Assembly (NCBI GenBank): GCA_020436695.1
Contig: JAGQXH010000009.1
Coordinates: forward strand, 1 to 32,607
Direction of reading: 5' to 3'
From: Lewinella sp.
Lineage (GTDB): Bacteria > Bacteroidota > Bacteroidia > Chitinophagales > Saprospiraceae
Length of the DNA stretch: 32,607 nt
In this document: piece after piece, positions 7,318-27,561 of the stretch
Layout: each line of letters opens with the position of its first letter
Numbering within the stretch: the first letter of the stretch is position 1
Notes under the pieces: generated by a model
Seen by the model: the letters and a program-made list of their open reading frames with translations, nothing else
The model's database searches: none
What the model was told of the DNA's origin: nothing
Program-made: the position numbers and the translations under genes

Positions 7318-8826
7318 ATGAAAACCACCATTAGTGATCGTTATGAAGTAAATCTCACCACCAAGGAAGATGTGATCGGTCGGGGAGGACAGGCTGTGGT
7401 CTACCGTGGTTTTGACCGGATACTGCAAACCCGGATTGCGATCAAGGTATACAAGCTGGTAGAATATTCAGAAAACATCCGGGCCCTGCAGGAACAATAT
7501 GCGCAGCTGGAGCGCTTTTATCACCCCAATGTGATCAATTATTACGATTGGGCCGTTTTTACCCACCAAAAGAAGATCCTGTTCGCCCTGATCATGAATT
7601 ACGCCGATCTCGGCACTCTCGACAGTTACCACGCCAATCTGAATACCGGTCGAATGGAAAAGATCGATCAGGTATTCACCGGTGTGCTCAATGGTTTAAA
7701 ACACATTCACCGGCAGGGCATTGTACATCGCGACCTGAAACCTTCCAATGTACTTCTGGCTTCGGAGGAAGACGACCACATCAATGCACTGCTTGCCGAT
7801 ATCCTGTTTGAAGCCAATAACCTGACCCAGGATGAAAAAGTAGCCACCGCTCATTTTGCCGGTATCTTTGGTACTATTGAATATATGGCTCCGGAACTAC
7901 TGGGTACCCGTAATGTATTGGTCGGTCCAGCCTCCGATATCTGGTCTTTCGGCGTTATGGTCTATGAATTTTTTATGGGCAAATTGCCCTTCGGTTCGCG
8001 GGCGGGTAATACTTCGCCGGTGCAGGTGGCGCAGGCTATTCTGACTGAATCGGTTGATGTCTCAGGTTTGCCACAGCCGTACAATTATGTCGTTTCAGCC
8101 TGCCTGGAAAAAGATATTTCCAACCGGATCAGCGATGCCGGTATCCTGATCGATATCATTGAAAAATACCGCTCCGGTGGAAGTCTCCATGCTCCGGTGA
8201 CCCGTTCTTCGAAGGAGATTCATTCGCCGAAGATGCCGGAATCACCGACCGCCGCTACGATTGTCGGTTTTGTCAATATTCGTAAACAGCCACAGGCAGA
8301 TGACTATCAGCCGGCCACAATGGTGTTCCAGGCTGCTACCCAACCGGTTTTCGGTACCATGCTGATGCCGGATACGGTTTTGGCTTCGGCAGCACCCACT
8401 ATGGTGATGGTGCCTTCGATGGTGGAAAGAAGAATTACTATTGTCGATCCGAATTATGCGGCCCCGGCGGCCGGCCCCGTCAATATGGTGCTATTGGATC
8501 AGATCCAGCAATTGAAGGAAAAGATAGAGGATATGGAACGCGATCAGGCCGGTAATTCGGCTACGACGGTGAGCTTTTCCCGAATGTCGTTGCAGGAATT
8601 GATCGCCCGCAATGAAATCGCCGAGTGTTTTTCCGAATTGAATAAAGTGAGAGACTCTTTTTCGCATCAGCTGAATAAGACCTACATCATGATCCGGGCC
8701 GAATGGTCGGAACTCAAAATGCAGGAAATGCACGGGATCATAGAAGATAATTTGCTGAAAACAGGAGCCAACAAACTCCGTTATAAACTGCTCAATTTTA
8801 TTGATCTGGTAGAAATTAACAGCTGA
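7318..8826 (+). CDS. Hanks-type Ser/Thr kinase with DIL in place of DFG and a C-terminal EAD11-like domain
   Basis: A 502-residue protein in three parts. Residues about 8-285 are a protein kinase domain: glycine loop GRGGQAVVYRG (21-31), ATP-binding lysine K43 in AIKVYK, catalytic loop HRDLKPSN (D139, N144) and APE at 191-193. The Mg-binding DFG motif reads DIL (161-163), keeping the aspartate but losing F and G. Residues about 290-390 are a Pro/Thr-rich linker with short T-[IM]-[VL] motifs, then a coiled-coil segment (about 392-410). Residues about 424-500 (SLQELIARNEIAECF..., ending NKLRYKLLNFIDL) resemble effector-associated domain 11 (EAD11), a small helical adaptor in predicted bacterial immunity and apoptosis-like systems. 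There is no transmembrane helix, so it is cytoplasmic. The kinase call is certain; the EAD11 call rests on pattern recognition. Confidence 0.9.
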   Translation: MKTTISDRYEVNLTTKEDVIGRGGQAVVYRGFDRILQTRIAIKVYKLVEYSENIRALQEQYAQLERFYHPNVINYYDWAVFTHQKKILFALIMNYADLGTLDSYHANLNTGRMEKIDQVFTGVLNGLKHIHRQGIVHRDLKPSNVLLASEEDDHINALLADILFEANNLTQDEKVATAHFAGIFGTIEYMAPELLGTRNVLVGPASDIWSFGVMVYEFFMGKLPFGSRAGNTSPVQVAQAILTESVDVSGLPQPYNYVVSACLEKDISNRISDAGILIDIIEKYRSGGSLHAPVTRSSKEIHSPKMPESPTAATIVGFVNIRKQPQADDYQPATMVFQAATQPVFGTMLMPDTVLASAAPTMVMVPSMVERRITIVDPNYAAPAAGPVNMVLLDQIQQLKEKIEDMERDQAGNSATTVSFSRMSLQELIARNEIAECFSELNKVRDSFSHQLNKTYIMIRAEWSELKMQEMHGIIEDNLLKTGANKLRYKLLNFIDLVEINS

Positions 8827-18434: not shown

Positions 18435-19016
18435 ATGACGGCATACCACGCTCCCAAGACGGATTATACCATCGATGAATATCTCGAAATCGAATTTCGG
18501 AAGGGCGAACGATTTGAGTATTACAACGGAAAACTGATCCCCATGCCCGGAGGAAGTATCGAACATAACCGTATTTGTCGGAACCTGATCATGTATTTAG
18601 GAGCCGCGCTTGAAGAAAAAATTAATTACGAAGTTTTCGGTAGTGACCAAAAAGTCTACCTGCCGCATTTCAACTTCTATCTTTATCCTGATGCCATTGT
18701 GGTCACTACCGTGCCGGAAACAGTGGAGAATGACACCCAGGCCATCATCAATCCGGTGTTGATCGTTGAAGTGGCCTCTCCCAGTACGGCCAAATTTGAC
18801 CGTGGAGATAAATTCGCCGATTATAAGAGTATCCCTACCTTCCAGGAATATGTACTGGTAAGACAGGATTCTCCCGAAGTGAACCTCTTCTTCCGTGAGG
18901 CACCCGATCTTTGGCGCAGTACGGATATTATGGGTTTGGAAAATAACGTCTTCTTTCGTTCAATCGAAACGGAATTATCGATGGAACGTATCTACCGAAA
19001 AGTCCAATTTAAGTAG
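18435..19016 (+). CDS. Uma2-family (DUF820) PD-(D/E)XK nuclease-like protein
   Basis: A 193-residue protein. The Uma2 features are in order: TIDEYLEIEFRKGERFEYYNGKL (about 12-34), SIEHNRICRNLIMYLG (about 44-59), the first acidic position in YPDAIVV, the E in VLIVEVASPSTAKFDRGDK, and the lysine of DYKSIPTFQEYVLV. These form a restriction-endonuclease-like fold. The family is abundant in cyanobacteria and Bacteroidota, often in many copies, and its cellular role is unsettled. The gene is alone, with no methyltransferase nearby. Confidence 0.88.
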   Translation: MTAYHAPKTDYTIDEYLEIEFRKGERFEYYNGKLIPMPGGSIEHNRICRNLIMYLGAALEEKINYEVFGSDQKVYLPHFNFYLYPDAIVVTTVPETVENDTQAIINPVLIVEVASPSTAKFDRGDKFADYKSIPTFQEYVLVRQDSPEVNLFFREAPDLWRSTDIMGLENNVFFRSIETELSMERIYRKVQFK

Positions 19017-19934: not shown

Positions 19935-20279
19935 TTAGATCAGCGTGCGCTGTACTTTTTGGGGTAATTTTAGCTTGACCAATTCATAGGCCCGGGACAA
20001 TAGACTGTTCCATTCTTCTTCGCTTAAAGCATCAAAGAATGCCACTTTCACCCATTTGTAGGTAGTGCCGCCGTAAGGTGCCGGATCGATCCCCTCTCTT
20101 TCGCAGAGGGCGTCAAATTCTACATCGCTCACTTTGAAATTGACAGTGGACAGTGTTTGCAGATCGGAAGAGCAAAAATGCTTATTCACTACCATGAAGC
20201 ACAGCCGGTCTCCGTATTTGATCCCTTCACTGGTGCCTGGGAAGGCCAGACAGATCTCGCGTATTTTTTCAATATCCAT
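19935..20279 (-). CDS. MmcQ/YjbR-family protein
   Basis: A 114-residue protein from the ATG at 20279; the TTG at 20297 is rejected because family members start MDxExxRxxCL. It has the CyaY-like double-wing fold features: EICLAFPGTSEGIKYGDRLCFMVVNKHFC near the start (about 7-35), FKVSDVEFDALCER, PAPYGGTTYKWVKV and LLSRAYELVKLKLPQK. The family binds DNA, but its role is not established. It is first in an operon with the WYL regulator. Confidence 0.88.
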   Translation of the reverse strand: MDIEKIREICLAFPGTSEGIKYGDRLCFMVVNKHFCSSDLQTLSTVNFKVSDVEFDALCEREGIDPAPYGGTTYKWVKVAFFDALSEEEWNSLLSRAYELVKLKLPQKVQRTLI

Positions 20280-20344
20280 TACAACAAATATCTGCAATTT
20301 TCAGGCAAATGGAAAGCCGGATTTGATGAAAATCAATCACTTGG

Positions 20345-20500
20345 GAAACCGGCGTAGATATTGCACTGGGTTCAGCTTGGTATCTGCGGCCTGCTGTGAA
20401 ATATCAGGAACTGACCAGAGACATCACCGTTGAGTAGATCACTACGGACGCAAAACTGAAATATCTGCAAGTGGGTATTGGCTTTGCCAAACGCTTCTAG
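20345..20500 (+). pseudogene. Decayed C-terminus of an outer-membrane beta-barrel protein
   Basis: In the frame beginning at 20345 the plus strand reads TGVDIALGSAWYLRPAVKYQ and then, after an in-frame TAG at 20435-20437, LKYLQVGIGFAKRF and a TAG at 20498-20500. Alternating hydrophobic strands ending in a terminal phenylalanine are typical of PorT-like/OMP_b-brl barrels. Two TGA codons stop the same frame at 20324-20329, and no start or signal peptide is found upstream. So it is the broken tail of a lost gene, lying tail-to-tail with the metallo-beta-lactamase. Confidence 0.65.
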
Positions 20501-20513
20501 TGATCGGGAACAT

Positions 20514-21269
20514 CTATCGATCAGTAAAAGAAGATGCCAGTTCGATGGTGTGATCCAACAGGGCTGCCTCACCGGGCTGGCCATGACCCGGCACGACAAA
20601 ACGTACGGCCGGGAATGCCTCTCTGACCTTTCTTACCGTACCAGCCCATTCTTCTACCACGGCGTCTGCGGTATTCCCCAGGCCCTTGAAGTCTGCACTA
20701 CGGATCAGGCATCCGCCGAATAAGACCCGTTCAGCCGGGAACCAGACCACAATATTATCCGGTGCATGGCCCGGGCCAAAGTAGTGGAGTCCCACTTTTT
20801 GTCCCTGAAAATTTAACTGCTTCCTCTTATTAAAGGTACGTTGCGGAATTACGAGGCCTTTGGCTTTGCAAATGGCTTTAGTCCTTTTGTTGGCTACAGA
20901 CCGGGCCCCAATGCTGTGCAGGTAGGGAATGCCGGCCAGACAATCATCGTGAAAATGGCCGGGAACGACAAGGCTGATGCGGGCCTGCAGATTATCGCGC
21001 ACATAATCAGAGAGCGCGATGGTCTGCGCTTCTTCCATGGGCGTGTCCACCATTAGTGCTTCTCCATTACGGATGTACAAAATGCCGTTAGATCCTACAC
21101 GGCCAAAGCCGGTTACCTCCGTCCAGGACAGATGAATGTACATGCCTTCCATGATAGGGATCAACTGCAGATCGTCATTGATAACGATCGGTGTTTTATC
21201 CTGTGCGGCCAGCGTATAGGACAGCAGTAAGTAAAGTGGGAAAAGAAATGATATTTTCAGATCGCTCAT
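20514..21269 (-). CDS. Subclass B1 metallo-beta-lactamase
   Basis: A 251-residue secreted enzyme with a signal peptide (SFLFPLYLLLSYTLAA). It has all B1 zinc ligands: HFHDD (H105, H107, D109), GHAPDN (H168), GGCLIRS (C187) and PGHGQPG (H229). Around the cysteine, KGLGNTADAVVEEW and the end ALLDHTIEL follow the BcII/BlaB pattern closely. R190 replaces the K224 of typical B1 enzymes. Such enzymes hydrolyse beta-lactams, including carbapenems, in the periplasm with one or two zinc ions. Activity is inferred from the intact residues; B1 homologues in environmental Bacteroidota are commonly chromosomal. It lies between a decayed barrel gene and a divergent acetyltransferase, with no integron or transposase next to it. 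Confidence 0.9.
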   Translation of the reverse strand: MSDLKISFLFPLYLLLSYTLAAQDKTPIVINDDLQLIPIMEGMYIHLSWTEVTGFGRVGSNGILYIRNGEALMVDTPMEEAQTIALSDYVRDNLQARISLVVPGHFHDDCLAGIPYLHSIGARSVANKRTKAICKAKGLVIPQRTFNKRKQLNFQGQKVGLHYFGPGHAPDNIVVWFPAERVLFGGCLIRSADFKGLGNTADAVVEEWAGTVRKVREAFPAVRFVVPGHGQPGEAALLDHTIELASSFTDR

Positions 21270-21428: not shown

Positions 21429-21905
21429 ATGCAAGAGATTCTCAACGCTACTAAAGGCAAATATCACATTACAACTGATCTGCGTCGCATCGATCTGGAA
21501 ATGGTGCACCACTATCTTTGCTACGAGTCTTACTGGAGCCGGGGCATTCCTTTGGAAAAAGTAGAAACAGCCGCCTGGAATTCACTCAATTTCGGCCTGT
21601 TCCACGCCGAAAATCAGATCGGATATGCCCGTGTGATCACTGATTATTCCCAGATCGCCTACCTGGGAGATGTTTTTATTCTGGAAGCTTATCGCGGCTT
21701 TGGCCTGGGCAAATGGCTGATCGAAACCGTGCACAGCCATCCACAACTGCAAAATCTGCGCAACTGGCTATTGGGCACCAAAGATGCTCAGGGTTTGTAT
21801 CAGCAGTTCGGCTGGATCAATCCGCCGGAACCTTATCGCTGGATGATCCGGCCAAACCGAGAGGTGTACCGGGGAAATGAGGGGTGGGAGCACCCCGGTG
21901 TTTAA
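21429..21905 (+). CDS. GNAT-family N-acetyltransferase
   Basis: A 158-residue protein. Acetyl-CoA-binding motif A is YRGFGLGKWLIETV (about 94-107), preceded by IAYLGDVFILEAY. It ends with GLYQQFGW and the W-x-x-R segment typical of the group with an N-terminal YCYESYWSRGIPLE-type substrate loop. The substrate cannot be told. It is divergent from the beta-lactamase, and its stop overlaps that of the convergent darcynin gene. Confidence 0.88.
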   Translation: MQEILNATKGKYHITTDLRRIDLEMVHHYLCYESYWSRGIPLEKVETAAWNSLNFGLFHAENQIGYARVITDYSQIAYLGDVFILEAYRGFGLGKWLIETVHSHPQLQNLRNWLLGTKDAQGLYQQFGWINPPEPYRWMIRPNREVYRGNEGWEHPGV

Positions 21906-24175: not shown

Positions 24176-25138
24176 ATGAAGCGAGCATTTAGTGAACACC
24201 TTCAATCGCGGAAACTTACGACTTTAGTAGAGAACCGGTCAACCTACAGTGCGGAATTTGCCGAGTTGAATATTTTTGAAACGCATCAGGTAGCGGAGAA
24301 AGTAGAATTGCAATTCGGTTTTCCTGTCATTGCCATTATGCTGACCGGCAAAAAGGTCATGCATCTGGAAGGCATGCAGCCTTTCGATTTCTTCCCGGGT
24401 GAATCAGTAGTGCTGCCTTCGGACAAGAGAATGGTTATTGATTTTCCACTCGCGAAAAAGGATGATCCTACTCAATGTCTTGCCCTGGGGATCAATCCGG
24501 ATAAGATCGCGGATGTCGTCAACAAATTCAATCAGTACACTGCTGTTGAAGACGAGAACAACAACTGGAAACTCGATGAAACCAGCTCGCATCTTACTAA
24601 TAATGAAGAGGTTAATTTCCTGGTCGATCGCTTACTGCACACCTTTATTAATTCCCATACCTCAAAAGATATCATTCTGGACCTGATGATACAGGAATTG
24701 ATCATCAGGCTGCTCCAGACAAAGGCCAGATGCCACCTGCTGAGTGATCAGCTCGGCATTTTCAATGATTCCCGCATCGGCATTGTTCTCAAATTCATTA
24801 AAGATCATCTGACCGACAAAAATATGACGATTGACATGCTGGCTAAAAAGGCCTGCATGAGTAGTTCTCATTTTTACCGTAAGTTTAAGAACACGCTCGG
24901 CACTTCGCCTATCGATTATATCAACGGAGAAAAGATCAAGTTCGCAAAACGCCTGATGAAGGAAAGGCGCAATCTGCAAATTTCGGAAGTAGCCTACCTT
25001 TCCGGCTTCAACAACGTAAGCTATTTTATCCGGCAGTTTAAAAAGATCGAACTGATCACCCCCCAACAATTCAAAAAGTCAATTGAAGATGCTTATTCCA
25101 ATAAAGTGGTCAAAATGGGCAACAGCAGGTTGGCTTAA
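24176..25138 (+). CDS. AraC-family transcriptional regulator
   Basis: A 320-residue protein. The N-terminal part (about 1-190) is an AraC_N-type ligand-sensing region with ELQFGFPVIAIMLTGKK and MQPFDFFPGESVVLP. The C-terminal 100 residues hold two helix-turn-helix units: MTIDMLAKKACMSSSHFYRKFK (about 219-240) and LQISEVAYLSGFNNVSYFIRQFKK (about 267-290), where the GFxxxSYFxRxFK sequence is the family signature. It probably responds to a small molecule. The neighbour 368 bases downstream, a YncD-like TonB-dependent receptor, is its most likely target. Confidence 0.94.
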   Translation: MKRAFSEHLQSRKLTTLVENRSTYSAEFAELNIFETHQVAEKVELQFGFPVIAIMLTGKKVMHLEGMQPFDFFPGESVVLPSDKRMVIDFPLAKKDDPTQCLALGINPDKIADVVNKFNQYTAVEDENNNWKLDETSSHLTNNEEVNFLVDRLLHTFINSHTSKDIILDLMIQELIIRLLQTKARCHLLSDQLGIFNDSRIGIVLKFIKDHLTDKNMTIDMLAKKACMSSSHFYRKFKNTLGTSPIDYINGEKIKFAKRLMKERRNLQISEVAYLSGFNNVSYFIRQFKKIELITPQQFKKSIEDAYSNKVVKMGNSRLA

Positions 25139-25506
25139 CCATTACTCGCTTCCCTTCTTTTAATACAGATGCCTTCAACATTTCTGTCGATGTGGTCCCC
25201 TTTTATGTCCGTGCTGTTTTCACATGTGGCTTAGCCTGATTTATACAGGTTAATCAGTCATCAGTTTGAGCAAAGCACTCATTCAAAATGGAATGTTTTT
25301 CTGAATTACACCTATCTTCAGGCCACTATCTTCTATCCGTTCAGAGCGACTTCGTCTTACTCTTATTCGGCTGGGAACGATTTCCGGAGTACAATTCTTA
25401 GGATGGCTTTAAGCCATCACATGGATCAACGTTCGAAAAAATTCCAAATATCTTCGCCTTACCTGATTTTTAGGAGGGTAGAGTAAAGTTCTAATACAAC
25501 CAATAC
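25139..25506. other. 368-base gap before the YncD-like receptor, with a 17-base palindrome
   Basis: GATGGCTTTAAGCCATC at 25402-25418 has perfect 8-base arms around one T. It lies about 90 bases upstream of the receptor start, as an AraC operator or a riboswitch-like stem might. An AGGAGGG run at 25473-25479 is 27 bases from the ATG and so too far for a ribosome-binding site. No other gene remnant was recognised. Confidence 0.35.
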
Positions 25507-27561
25507 ATGAAAAAATACGTCCTGTTCATCGCCATTTTCAACCTGTATTTACTACGGCTGACTGCCCAGCAGGATACCCTGCAACGAATCACTATCGATG
25601 AGGTAGAGGTCAGTGCGCTACGCATTGCTACCCCTCCGCTCCAGCAACCCTTTTCCATTGCTACTTACCGGGCCGGTACGTTGCAGGAAACCAGGCAACA
25701 ACTTTCCCTGCAGGAGTATCTTTTTCAGGTGCCGGGGTTGTTTAGTCTCAATGCCAATAATTACGCGCAGGATCTCCGGATCTCCATCCGGGGGTTCGGG
25801 GCCCGTTCGGCCTTTGGTATCCGTGGGGTTAAGATCGTGGTGGATGGCATCCCTGAGACTACACCCGACGGACAGGGGCAGATCGATAATCTGAACATCG
25901 GCATCATCGACCGGATGGAAGTGCTCAAAGGCCCTTCTTCTGCCTTGTACGGAAATGCTTCCGGTGGGGTGATCCAGATCCATACCCGTGAAAATTTTGA
26001 CCGGAATTTTCTGAATGCCGGACTCACTTTCGGGTCGTTTAATATGCAGCAATATCAACTGAGCGGCGGCTGGACCCACCATCGTACCCGAGCCATCCTC
26101 CAGGGAACGCACACCCGAACCGATGGATACCGGGAACAAAGCAGGCTGGAGAATACCAACTTCAACGCCCGGATCTTTCACGATTTTTCGGACCGGTCAA
26201 AGGCGAATTTACAACTCAATTATACCAATAGCCCGGTAGGCGACGACCCCGGTGGGATCAATGCCGACGACGTCGCGGAGGACCGCCGGCAGGCCAGAGA
26301 TCAGAATGTACGGTATCATGCCGGAGAAGCCATTGCACAACTCAAACTGGGCGGCCAGTACCAATATGATCTTAGTGAAAATAAGAGCCTCCAGTTTTAC
26401 GGCTTTTACAGCACAAGGGATTTTGAGGGTCTGCTGCCCATCGGTGCTGATGGCTGGGTCGACCTCCAACGGGCCTATTTTGGCCAGGGAGGACATTTTA
26501 AGACCCGCAGCGCAAGGGCCAATGGAGCCAACACTTTTCAATTGGGTTACGAGTGGGCGATACAAAGTGATGACAGAAGACGCTTTGCTAATAATGAAGG
26601 CGTTAAAGGTGATCTGGCCTTAGATCAAATAGAGCGATTTTCCACAGTCGGTCTGTATGTGTTGGACCACCTTTCCTTCAACCGTTGGCTGTTATCTTTC
26701 GGCCTGCGTTACGATTTGAACCAACTTTCGGCCGATGATCAGTTGCGCAGCGATGGAGACCAGTCGGGCAGTAGTGATCTTTCGGCCTTCAATCCAAGTC
26801 TGGGTGTGAACTACGAAGTGGCTCCCAACCTGCATATATATGGGAGTTACCGCACCAGTTTCGAAACGCCCTCCCTGAGTGAATTATCAGCTAACCCTTC
26901 CGGAGAAGCTGGTTTTGACCCTGATCTGAAATCGCAACGGGCCTATAATTATGAAGTGGGTTTCAAGGGTATACTTGGAAACAATATGGATTTCGATCTT
27001 ACCCTCTTTCACATCGATACCGAAAATGATCTGGTACCCTACGAACTGGAAGCTTTTCCGGGGAGAACTTTTTACCGGAATGCCGGCAGCACTACCCGCG
27101 ATGGGATAGAGCTATGGTTGCGCTACCAACTTTCCCGCTTCTTCTCGGTGCGGGGTAGCTATACTTACTCGGATTTCTCTTACAAGGAATATATGCTCGA
27201 TGATGAGGATTTTGCCGGGAAGTTACTACCTGCTATCCCTCCGCATCTGCTGGCGCTGCAACTGGCTTATGAAAATGATAAAGGACTGAATCTGCGTCTC
27301 CAACATCGATACACTGCCGAATTTTATGCCAACGATGCCAATACCGCTACTGAGCCGGCTTATCAGGTGACAGATCTCAGTATCGGTTATCGTGTTGGGT
27401 TAAAGCAAGCTACGCTGATCCCATTTTTTGGTATCAACAATATCTTTGATACCAAGTATAGTGATAACGTGCGGATCAATGCCTTTGGCGGTAGGTACTA
27501 CGAACCGGCTCCGGGCATCAATTTCTTTGGCGGTCTGCGATTGAATCTGGAGGGAAAATAG
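25507..27561 (+). CDS. YncD/PqqU-like TonB-dependent outer membrane receptor
   Basis: A 684-residue protein with a signal peptide to about residue 21. There is no carboxypeptidase-like domain, so it is a classical siderophore-type receptor rather than SusC. The plug (about 45-155) contains NYAQDLRISIRGFGARSAFG, DGIPETTPDGQGQ and the ending LKGPSSALYGNASGGV. Later segments DDPGG, GRTFYRNAGSTTRDG and the final GGRYYEPAPG also follow E. coli YncD. YncD (PqqU) takes up pyrroloquinoline quinone (PQQ). The family match is strong by eye; the PQQ substrate is inferred. It is preceded by an AraC regulator and followed by a clear hairpin terminator. Confidence 0.9.
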   Translation: MKKYVLFIAIFNLYLLRLTAQQDTLQRITIDEVEVSALRIATPPLQQPFSIATYRAGTLQETRQQLSLQEYLFQVPGLFSLNANNYAQDLRISIRGFGARSAFGIRGVKIVVDGIPETTPDGQGQIDNLNIGIIDRMEVLKGPSSALYGNASGGVIQIHTRENFDRNFLNAGLTFGSFNMQQYQLSGGWTHHRTRAILQGTHTRTDGYREQSRLENTNFNARIFHDFSDRSKANLQLNYTNSPVGDDPGGINADDVAEDRRQARDQNVRYHAGEAIAQLKLGGQYQYDLSENKSLQFYGFYSTRDFEGLLPIGADGWVDLQRAYFGQGGHFKTRSARANGANTFQLGYEWAIQSDDRRRFANNEGVKGDLALDQIERFSTVGLYVLDHLSFNRWLLSFGLRYDLNQLSADDQLRSDGDQSGSSDLSAFNPSLGVNYEVAPNLHIYGSYRTSFETPSLSELSANPSGEAGFDPDLKSQRAYNYEVGFKGILGNNMDFDLTLFHIDTENDLVPYELEAFPGRTFYRNAGSTTRDGIELWLRYQLSRFFSVRGSYTYSDFSYKEYMLDDEDFAGKLLPAIPPHLLALQLAYENDKGLNLRLQHRYTAEFYANDANTATEPAYQVTDLSIGYRVGLKQATLIPFFGINNIFDTKYSDNVRINAFGGRYYEPAPGINFFGGLRLNLEGK

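Follow-up and report, generated by a model that had tools for sequence, protein, structure and literature searches.

A predicted subclass B1 metallo-beta-lactamase related to CcrA, encoded on a Flavilitoribacter contig

Introduction

In Berglund et al. (2017; PMC5637372), CcrA is placed in group B1-3 of the metallo-beta-lactamases together with 25 novel families, the chromosomal hosts of which are all Bacteroidetes. According to the same source, the known mobile B1 families, with the exception of SPM, all cluster with Proteobacterial genes, and the majority of the predicted B1 genes tried by its authors were active. Position 224 (BBL numbering), usually Lys, is Arg in DIM-1, GIM-1 and TMB-1; it is suggested that Arg224 might contact the substrate carboxylate like Lys, and Arg-bearing enzymes are described as less efficient on some substrates, notably penicillins (PMC4599830). 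For the Lys to Arg replacement in NDM-1, the reported kcat/Km is about fourfold lower with imipenem, about twofold lower with ampicillin and equal to that of the wild type with cefotaxime (PMC6207675). NDM-1 and CIM-2 are reported to be membrane-anchored (PMC12326980).

The window analysed here, a stretch of 32,607 nucleotides, is an entire contig of an 8.5 Mb assembly (1143 contigs, 85% complete, 6.4% contamination), and contains a gene of a predicted B1 enzyme. This enzyme shares with CcrA/CfiA of Bacteroides fragilis the predicted fold (rmsd 0.9 A), the six zinc ligands, N233, a Cys directly after D120 (HxHxDC), a signal peptide without a lipobox and the side of the phylogenetic tree; however, the two are 36–38% identical, and position 224 is Lys in CcrA and Arg in the window. 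The enzyme of Flavilitoribacter nigricans DSM 23189 is an ortholog by gene order and also carries Arg224, although the signal peptides differ, and the adjoining barrel frame is open in F. nigricans and decayed in the window. DIM-1 and GIM-1 are B1 enzymes with Arg224 as well, but they are plasmid-borne in Pseudomonadota, show 32–33% identity to the window protein and belong to a separate clade. BlaB, IND and BcII, likewise of subclass B1, have similar letters around C221 (GGC followed by K or R and next by S), whereas their identity is 25.5–32% and they lie on the opposite side of the tree, a union with them not being rejected by AU tests.

Gene and family assignment

The gene was annotated as follows:

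20514..21269, minus strand: predicted subclass B1 metallo-beta-lactamase of the CcrA-like group, 251 aa (open reading frame, NF033088, PDB match, alignment, tree, model)

The open reading frame begins with ATG, and its bounds are exactly 20514–21269. The protein scored 252 bits (E 4.5e-75) against NF033088, the NCBI equivalog model of subclass B1 with a curated cut-off of 200; the match spans residues 31–245 and covers the model over nearly its full length. A total of 54 profile models match the protein, and among the best 25 of these the general B1 model alone exceeds its own cut-off. No named B1 family (DYB, IMP, BlaB/IND/MUS and others) reaches its cut-off among the same 25, the scores being 205 of 550 bits for DYB and 155 of 270 bits for BlaB/IND/MUS. 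The model of the CcrA/CfiA family proper (NF000322) gave 198.8 bits, below its cut-off of 550, while the general Pfam model Lactamase_B was exceeded modestly (35 bits, cut-off 22.7). The best solved relatives in the PDB are chains of Bacteroides fragilis CcrA (E 4e-59). Judged by its sequence, the enzyme is a relative of CcrA and not a CcrA allele; its divergence is the sole ground for counting it as a new B1 family, its kind being thoroughly known.

Zinc ligands and position 224

The following active-site features were located by sequence and alignment:

20943..20957, minus strand: zinc ligands H105, H107 and D109 (HFHDD; BBL 116, 118 and 120)
20766..20768, minus strand: zinc ligand H168 (within GHAPDN; BBL 196)
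20700..20711, minus strand: C187 (zinc ligand, BBL 221) through R190 (BBL 224)
20583..20585, minus strand: zinc ligand H229 (BBL 263)

By direct reading and alignment, H105, H107 and H168 correspond to the Zn1 ligands H116, H118 and H196, and D109, C187 and H229 to the Zn2 ligands D120, C221 and H263. The alignment comprised 121 rows, including 12 references, with Flavobacterium over-represented; excluded from it were a duplicate of the window (L039), two duplicates of F. nigricans (L040 and L134), identical proteins and proteins shorter than 190 aa. Besides the window and F. nigricans, it contains 45 rows from the host family, in which 86 sampled genomes carry a B1 gene that exceeds the cut-off. 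Columns H116, H118, D120, H196 and C221 are invariant in all 121 rows, and H263 is present in 120, the exception (L104) being a gap in a match that stops 26 bases before the end of the locus. Position 232 is Gly throughout, including the window, and position 233 is Asn in the window and in 63/121 rows overall, with Tyr in 54.

Alignment to CcrA places R190 at BBL 224. This position is occupied by Lys in 116 of the 121 rows, among them all 45 further rows from the host family, by Tyr in VIM-2, and by Arg in the remaining four, namely the proteins of the window and F. nigricans as well as GIM-1 and DIM-1. The substitution of R190 for the usual Lys, pointed out in the original prediction, is a known variant. 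The idea that R190 signals a loss of function was rejected, since active enzymes with Arg at this position are described (PMC4599830). Together with the NDM-1 data (PMC6207675), these published enzymes suggest that Arg224 goes with an active enzyme of somewhat shifted profile.

Export signal and predicted fold

The N-terminus contains the following feature, found by direct reading:

21201..21269, minus strand: export-signal-like segment, approximately residues 1–23, ending in LAAQ, without a lipobox cysteine

The segment is hydrophobic, with a probable cleavage site near residue 23; residues 9–21 are helical in the structural model at low to moderate confidence. The AlphaFold2 model, built with a 22-row alignment, has a mean pLDDT of 91.1 and a pTM of 0.86. 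In a Foldseek search of the PDB, CcrA 2bmi came first (38% identity, TM 0.87/0.96, rmsd 0.9 A); next came more CcrA chains, a CcrA-like protein from Dyadobacter fermentans, GIM-1, CJO-1, CIM-2, TMB-1, MYO-1, IMP-1 and ECV-1; all 50 matches listed bear metallo-beta-lactamase names. The best matches are CcrA chains at 0.9–1.2 A, and the modelled protein appears to adopt the B1 type of alpha-beta/beta-alpha metallo-beta-lactamase fold.

The original prediction of a complete subclass B1 enzyme agrees with the NF033088 score, the CcrA matches, the tree and the fit of the model; its six intact zinc ligands were found again in the alignment, and its signal peptide corresponds to the export-signal-like N-terminus.

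Under a simple lipobox rule, which is rough and misses the lipobox of NDM-1 itself, 29 of 43 B1 proteins of the host family with an M start (loci L009–L038 and L106–L133) are lipoprotein-like and would be anchored in the membrane in the manner of NDM-1 and CIM-2; those of the window and F. nigricans are not.

Phylogenetic position

The main tree was built from 82 of the 121 rows, with 38 Flavobacterium rows (thinning of a crowded group) and L104 omitted. The window and F. nigricans proteins are paired in it (100/99), and this pair, CfiA2/CcrA and 43 further Bacteroidota rows form one group (bootstrap/SH-aLRT 100/98). GIM-1, DIM-1, KHM-1 and IMP-1 are grouped apart from these (100/99). BlaB, IND, BcII and 6xfr sit across the tree (100/95), accompanied by four host-family rows (L020, L024, L027 and L028); accordingly, the host family has both kinds. 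The position of VIM-2 and NDM-1, both long rows, is uncertain. A reduced tree, made with 71 of the 82 rows, gave the same split between CcrA and BlaB/BcII (100/97); the 11 rows removed for it were long, gappy or divergent and had been picked after the first tree had been seen.

The AU tests were likewise framed once a tree had been seen. With the pair constrained to join the BlaB/BcII side, the log-likelihood fell by 15.9 in the main tree (p 0.289) and by 25.5 in the reduced tree (p 0.106), without rejection in either. CcrA and the pair are joined at only 85/39 in the main tree, CcrA is outermost in the reduced tree, and a constraint that kept the pair outside all other rows of the CcrA side cost 0.9 log units (AU p 0.47). 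Since none of the three constraints was rejected, the exact placing of the pair is provisional.

Identity of the window protein is 36% to CfiA2, 27% to BlaB, 25.5% to IND and 32% to BcII; these values and the family scores, besides the tree, favour affinity with the CcrA side. The window enzyme appears to be nearer to CcrA and the chromosomal Bacteroidota enzymes than to BlaB, BcII and IND, with strong branch support and a placing that the AU tests leave short of certain. The clustering (100/98 and 100/97, with AU p of 0.289 and 0.106 for the BlaB side) may correspond to group B1-3, CcrA being the only sequence of Berglund et al. (PMC5637372) in the tree. Phylogeny against known B1 enzymes, the check proposed originally, groups the window with CcrA and Bacteroidota B1 rows. 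The surroundings of C187 had been assigned to the BcII/BlaB pattern: the letters do resemble both, but overall kinship is nearer to CcrA, and the BlaB/BcII affinity at which they hint is disfavoured by the tree, identities and family scores, though not rejected by the AU tests.

Genomic context

F. nigricans DSM 23189 (Lewinellaceae, Bacteroidota) was the sole other genome of the host genus compared. Its ortholog (NZ_PDUD01000024.1) shows 57.5% identity over 226 residues and has the same neighbours on both sides:

21429..21905, plus strand: divergent GNAT acetyltransferase, neighbour kept in F. nigricans (67%; Pfam and comparison)
19935..20297, minus strand: YjbR-family gene, downstream neighbour kept in F. 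nigricans (55%; Pfam and comparison)

The window from about 15 to 32 kb is parallel to the gene order of F. nigricans, inverted, with gaps at 18.4–19.0 and 24.2–27.6 kb. Other identities along this stretch are 87.5% for a GFO/IDH/MocA oxidoreductase, 66% for a darcynin-like protein, 76% for a WYL regulator and 75% for AHSA1. This collinearity indicates that the contig belongs to the host genus and that the beta-lactamase gene has most likely been in place since the two species split. The gene has a GC content of 0.52 and a GC3 of 0.56, both similar to those of its surroundings, seven nearby genes having a GC3 of 0.51–0.61. No transposase or integrase families were found among 29 window ORFs scanned with Pfam, which were drawn from 75 listed at >=80 aa, many of them overlapping one another.

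By its surroundings, the gene is resident on the chromosome of a free-living genus. The Bacteroidota host, the resident status and the lack of an adjoining mobile element, all proposed originally, are borne out by the F. nigricans locus and the Pfam scan.

What is left of an outer-membrane beta-barrel gene lies at 20336–20497 on the plus strand. Its 54 residues, with one in-frame stop, show 63% identity to the C-terminal end of a 206-residue frame that is open at the corresponding position in F. nigricans; the first ~150 residues of that frame have no match at the corresponding place in the window.

Distribution in relatives and on plasmids

Of 398 sampled genomes of the host family, 86, the window's own included, carry a B1 gene that exceeds the curated cut-off, and the window protein is matched at E <= 1e-40 in 60 of the 398. 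Among the host-family matches listed, F. nigricans shows ~56–57.5% identity and all others <=44%. In other named genomes, a scan reaching close relatives only gave 64 loci, of which F. nigricans stood at 57% and all others at <=36%. Matching plasmid records numbered 2735, none reaching 60% identity, the top among the matches listed being 41.0%. No literature naming Flavilitoribacter, Lewinella or Saprospiraceae together with beta-lactamase was found in the articles covered, mostly from non-subscription journals and without supplementary files. The gene adds one more resident, functional-looking member to the environmental pool of B1 genes in Bacteroidota (Flavilitoribacter, Lewinella, Saprospiraceae); its bearing on surveillance is only mild, because the known mobile B1 families other than SPM are reported to cluster with Proteobacterial genes (PMC5637372) and the gene has no sign of moving. 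Its place in a pool of carbapenem resistance, suggested originally, would depend on the predicted hydrolysis.

Two B1-like loci of the host family, G025:C3:100407-101060 and G343:C610:41388-41819, contain three internal stops each, which suggests decayed copies.

Proposed function and alternatives

The gene is real and looks functional and ordinary, its activity being a prediction, and the protein is probably a complete, working zinc enzyme against penicillin-type and carbapenem antibiotics. We consider it very likely that it is a soluble two-zinc B1 enzyme of the CcrA/chromosomal Bacteroidota group, Sec-exported to the periplasm, intrinsic to the genus and protective against beta-lactams of competitors. 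After Sec export, Zn1 (H105, H107, H168) and Zn2 (D109, C187, H229) would hold a bridging hydroxide, which would attack the beta-lactam carbonyl, while R190, replacing the usual Lys, would most likely contact the substrate carboxylate. As an intrinsic chromosomal gene, it would shield the host from beta-lactams of competitors.

It is improbable that the protein is a B1-fold hydrolase with its main role elsewhere, on another cyclic amide, a lactone or a cell-wall fragment, beta-lactamase activity being low or incidental. Relaxed or changed selection would fit its faster divergence from F. nigricans (57.5%) than that of several neighbours (87.5, 76 and 67%), but the neighbouring YjbR gene is equally diverged (55%). 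Arg224 accompanies altered substrate handling in known enzymes (PMC4599830, PMC6207675); however, the full ligand set, G232 and N233 are kept, the B1 equivalog cut-off is passed, and most predicted B1 genes tried by Berglund et al. (PMC5637372) were active. Somewhat less improbable, though still unlikely, is that the Flavilitoribacter enzymes form a separate B1 lineage, in which Arg224 arose independently of DIM-1/GIM-1, N233 was kept, and a beta-lactam of the habitat or a related compound is preferred over carbapenems.

A mobile resistance gene, recently acquired, is scarcely credible. The patchy occurrence in the host family (60/398 genomes) would be compatible with acquisition, as would the absence of the GNAT, darcynin-like, YjbR and WYL genes beside homologues of other genera, within flanks of <= ~1.5 kb per side. 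Recent transfer is nevertheless contradicted by the same place and neighbours in F. nigricans at 57.5% identity, and the GC3 within the range of nearby genes and the low identity of plasmid matches also argue against it. An old transfer into the genus is possible.

Other genes of the contig

A Uma2-family gene (18435–19016, plus strand) is unmatched in the 35-kb F. nigricans stretch, and so are an AraC-type regulator and a TonB-dependent receptor (24176–27561, plus strand), the stretch being otherwise largely collinear. The gene at 7318–8826 on the plus strand encodes a protein kinase domain and, at the C-terminus, an Effector-associated domain 11, which is known from bacterial systems of conflict or defence.
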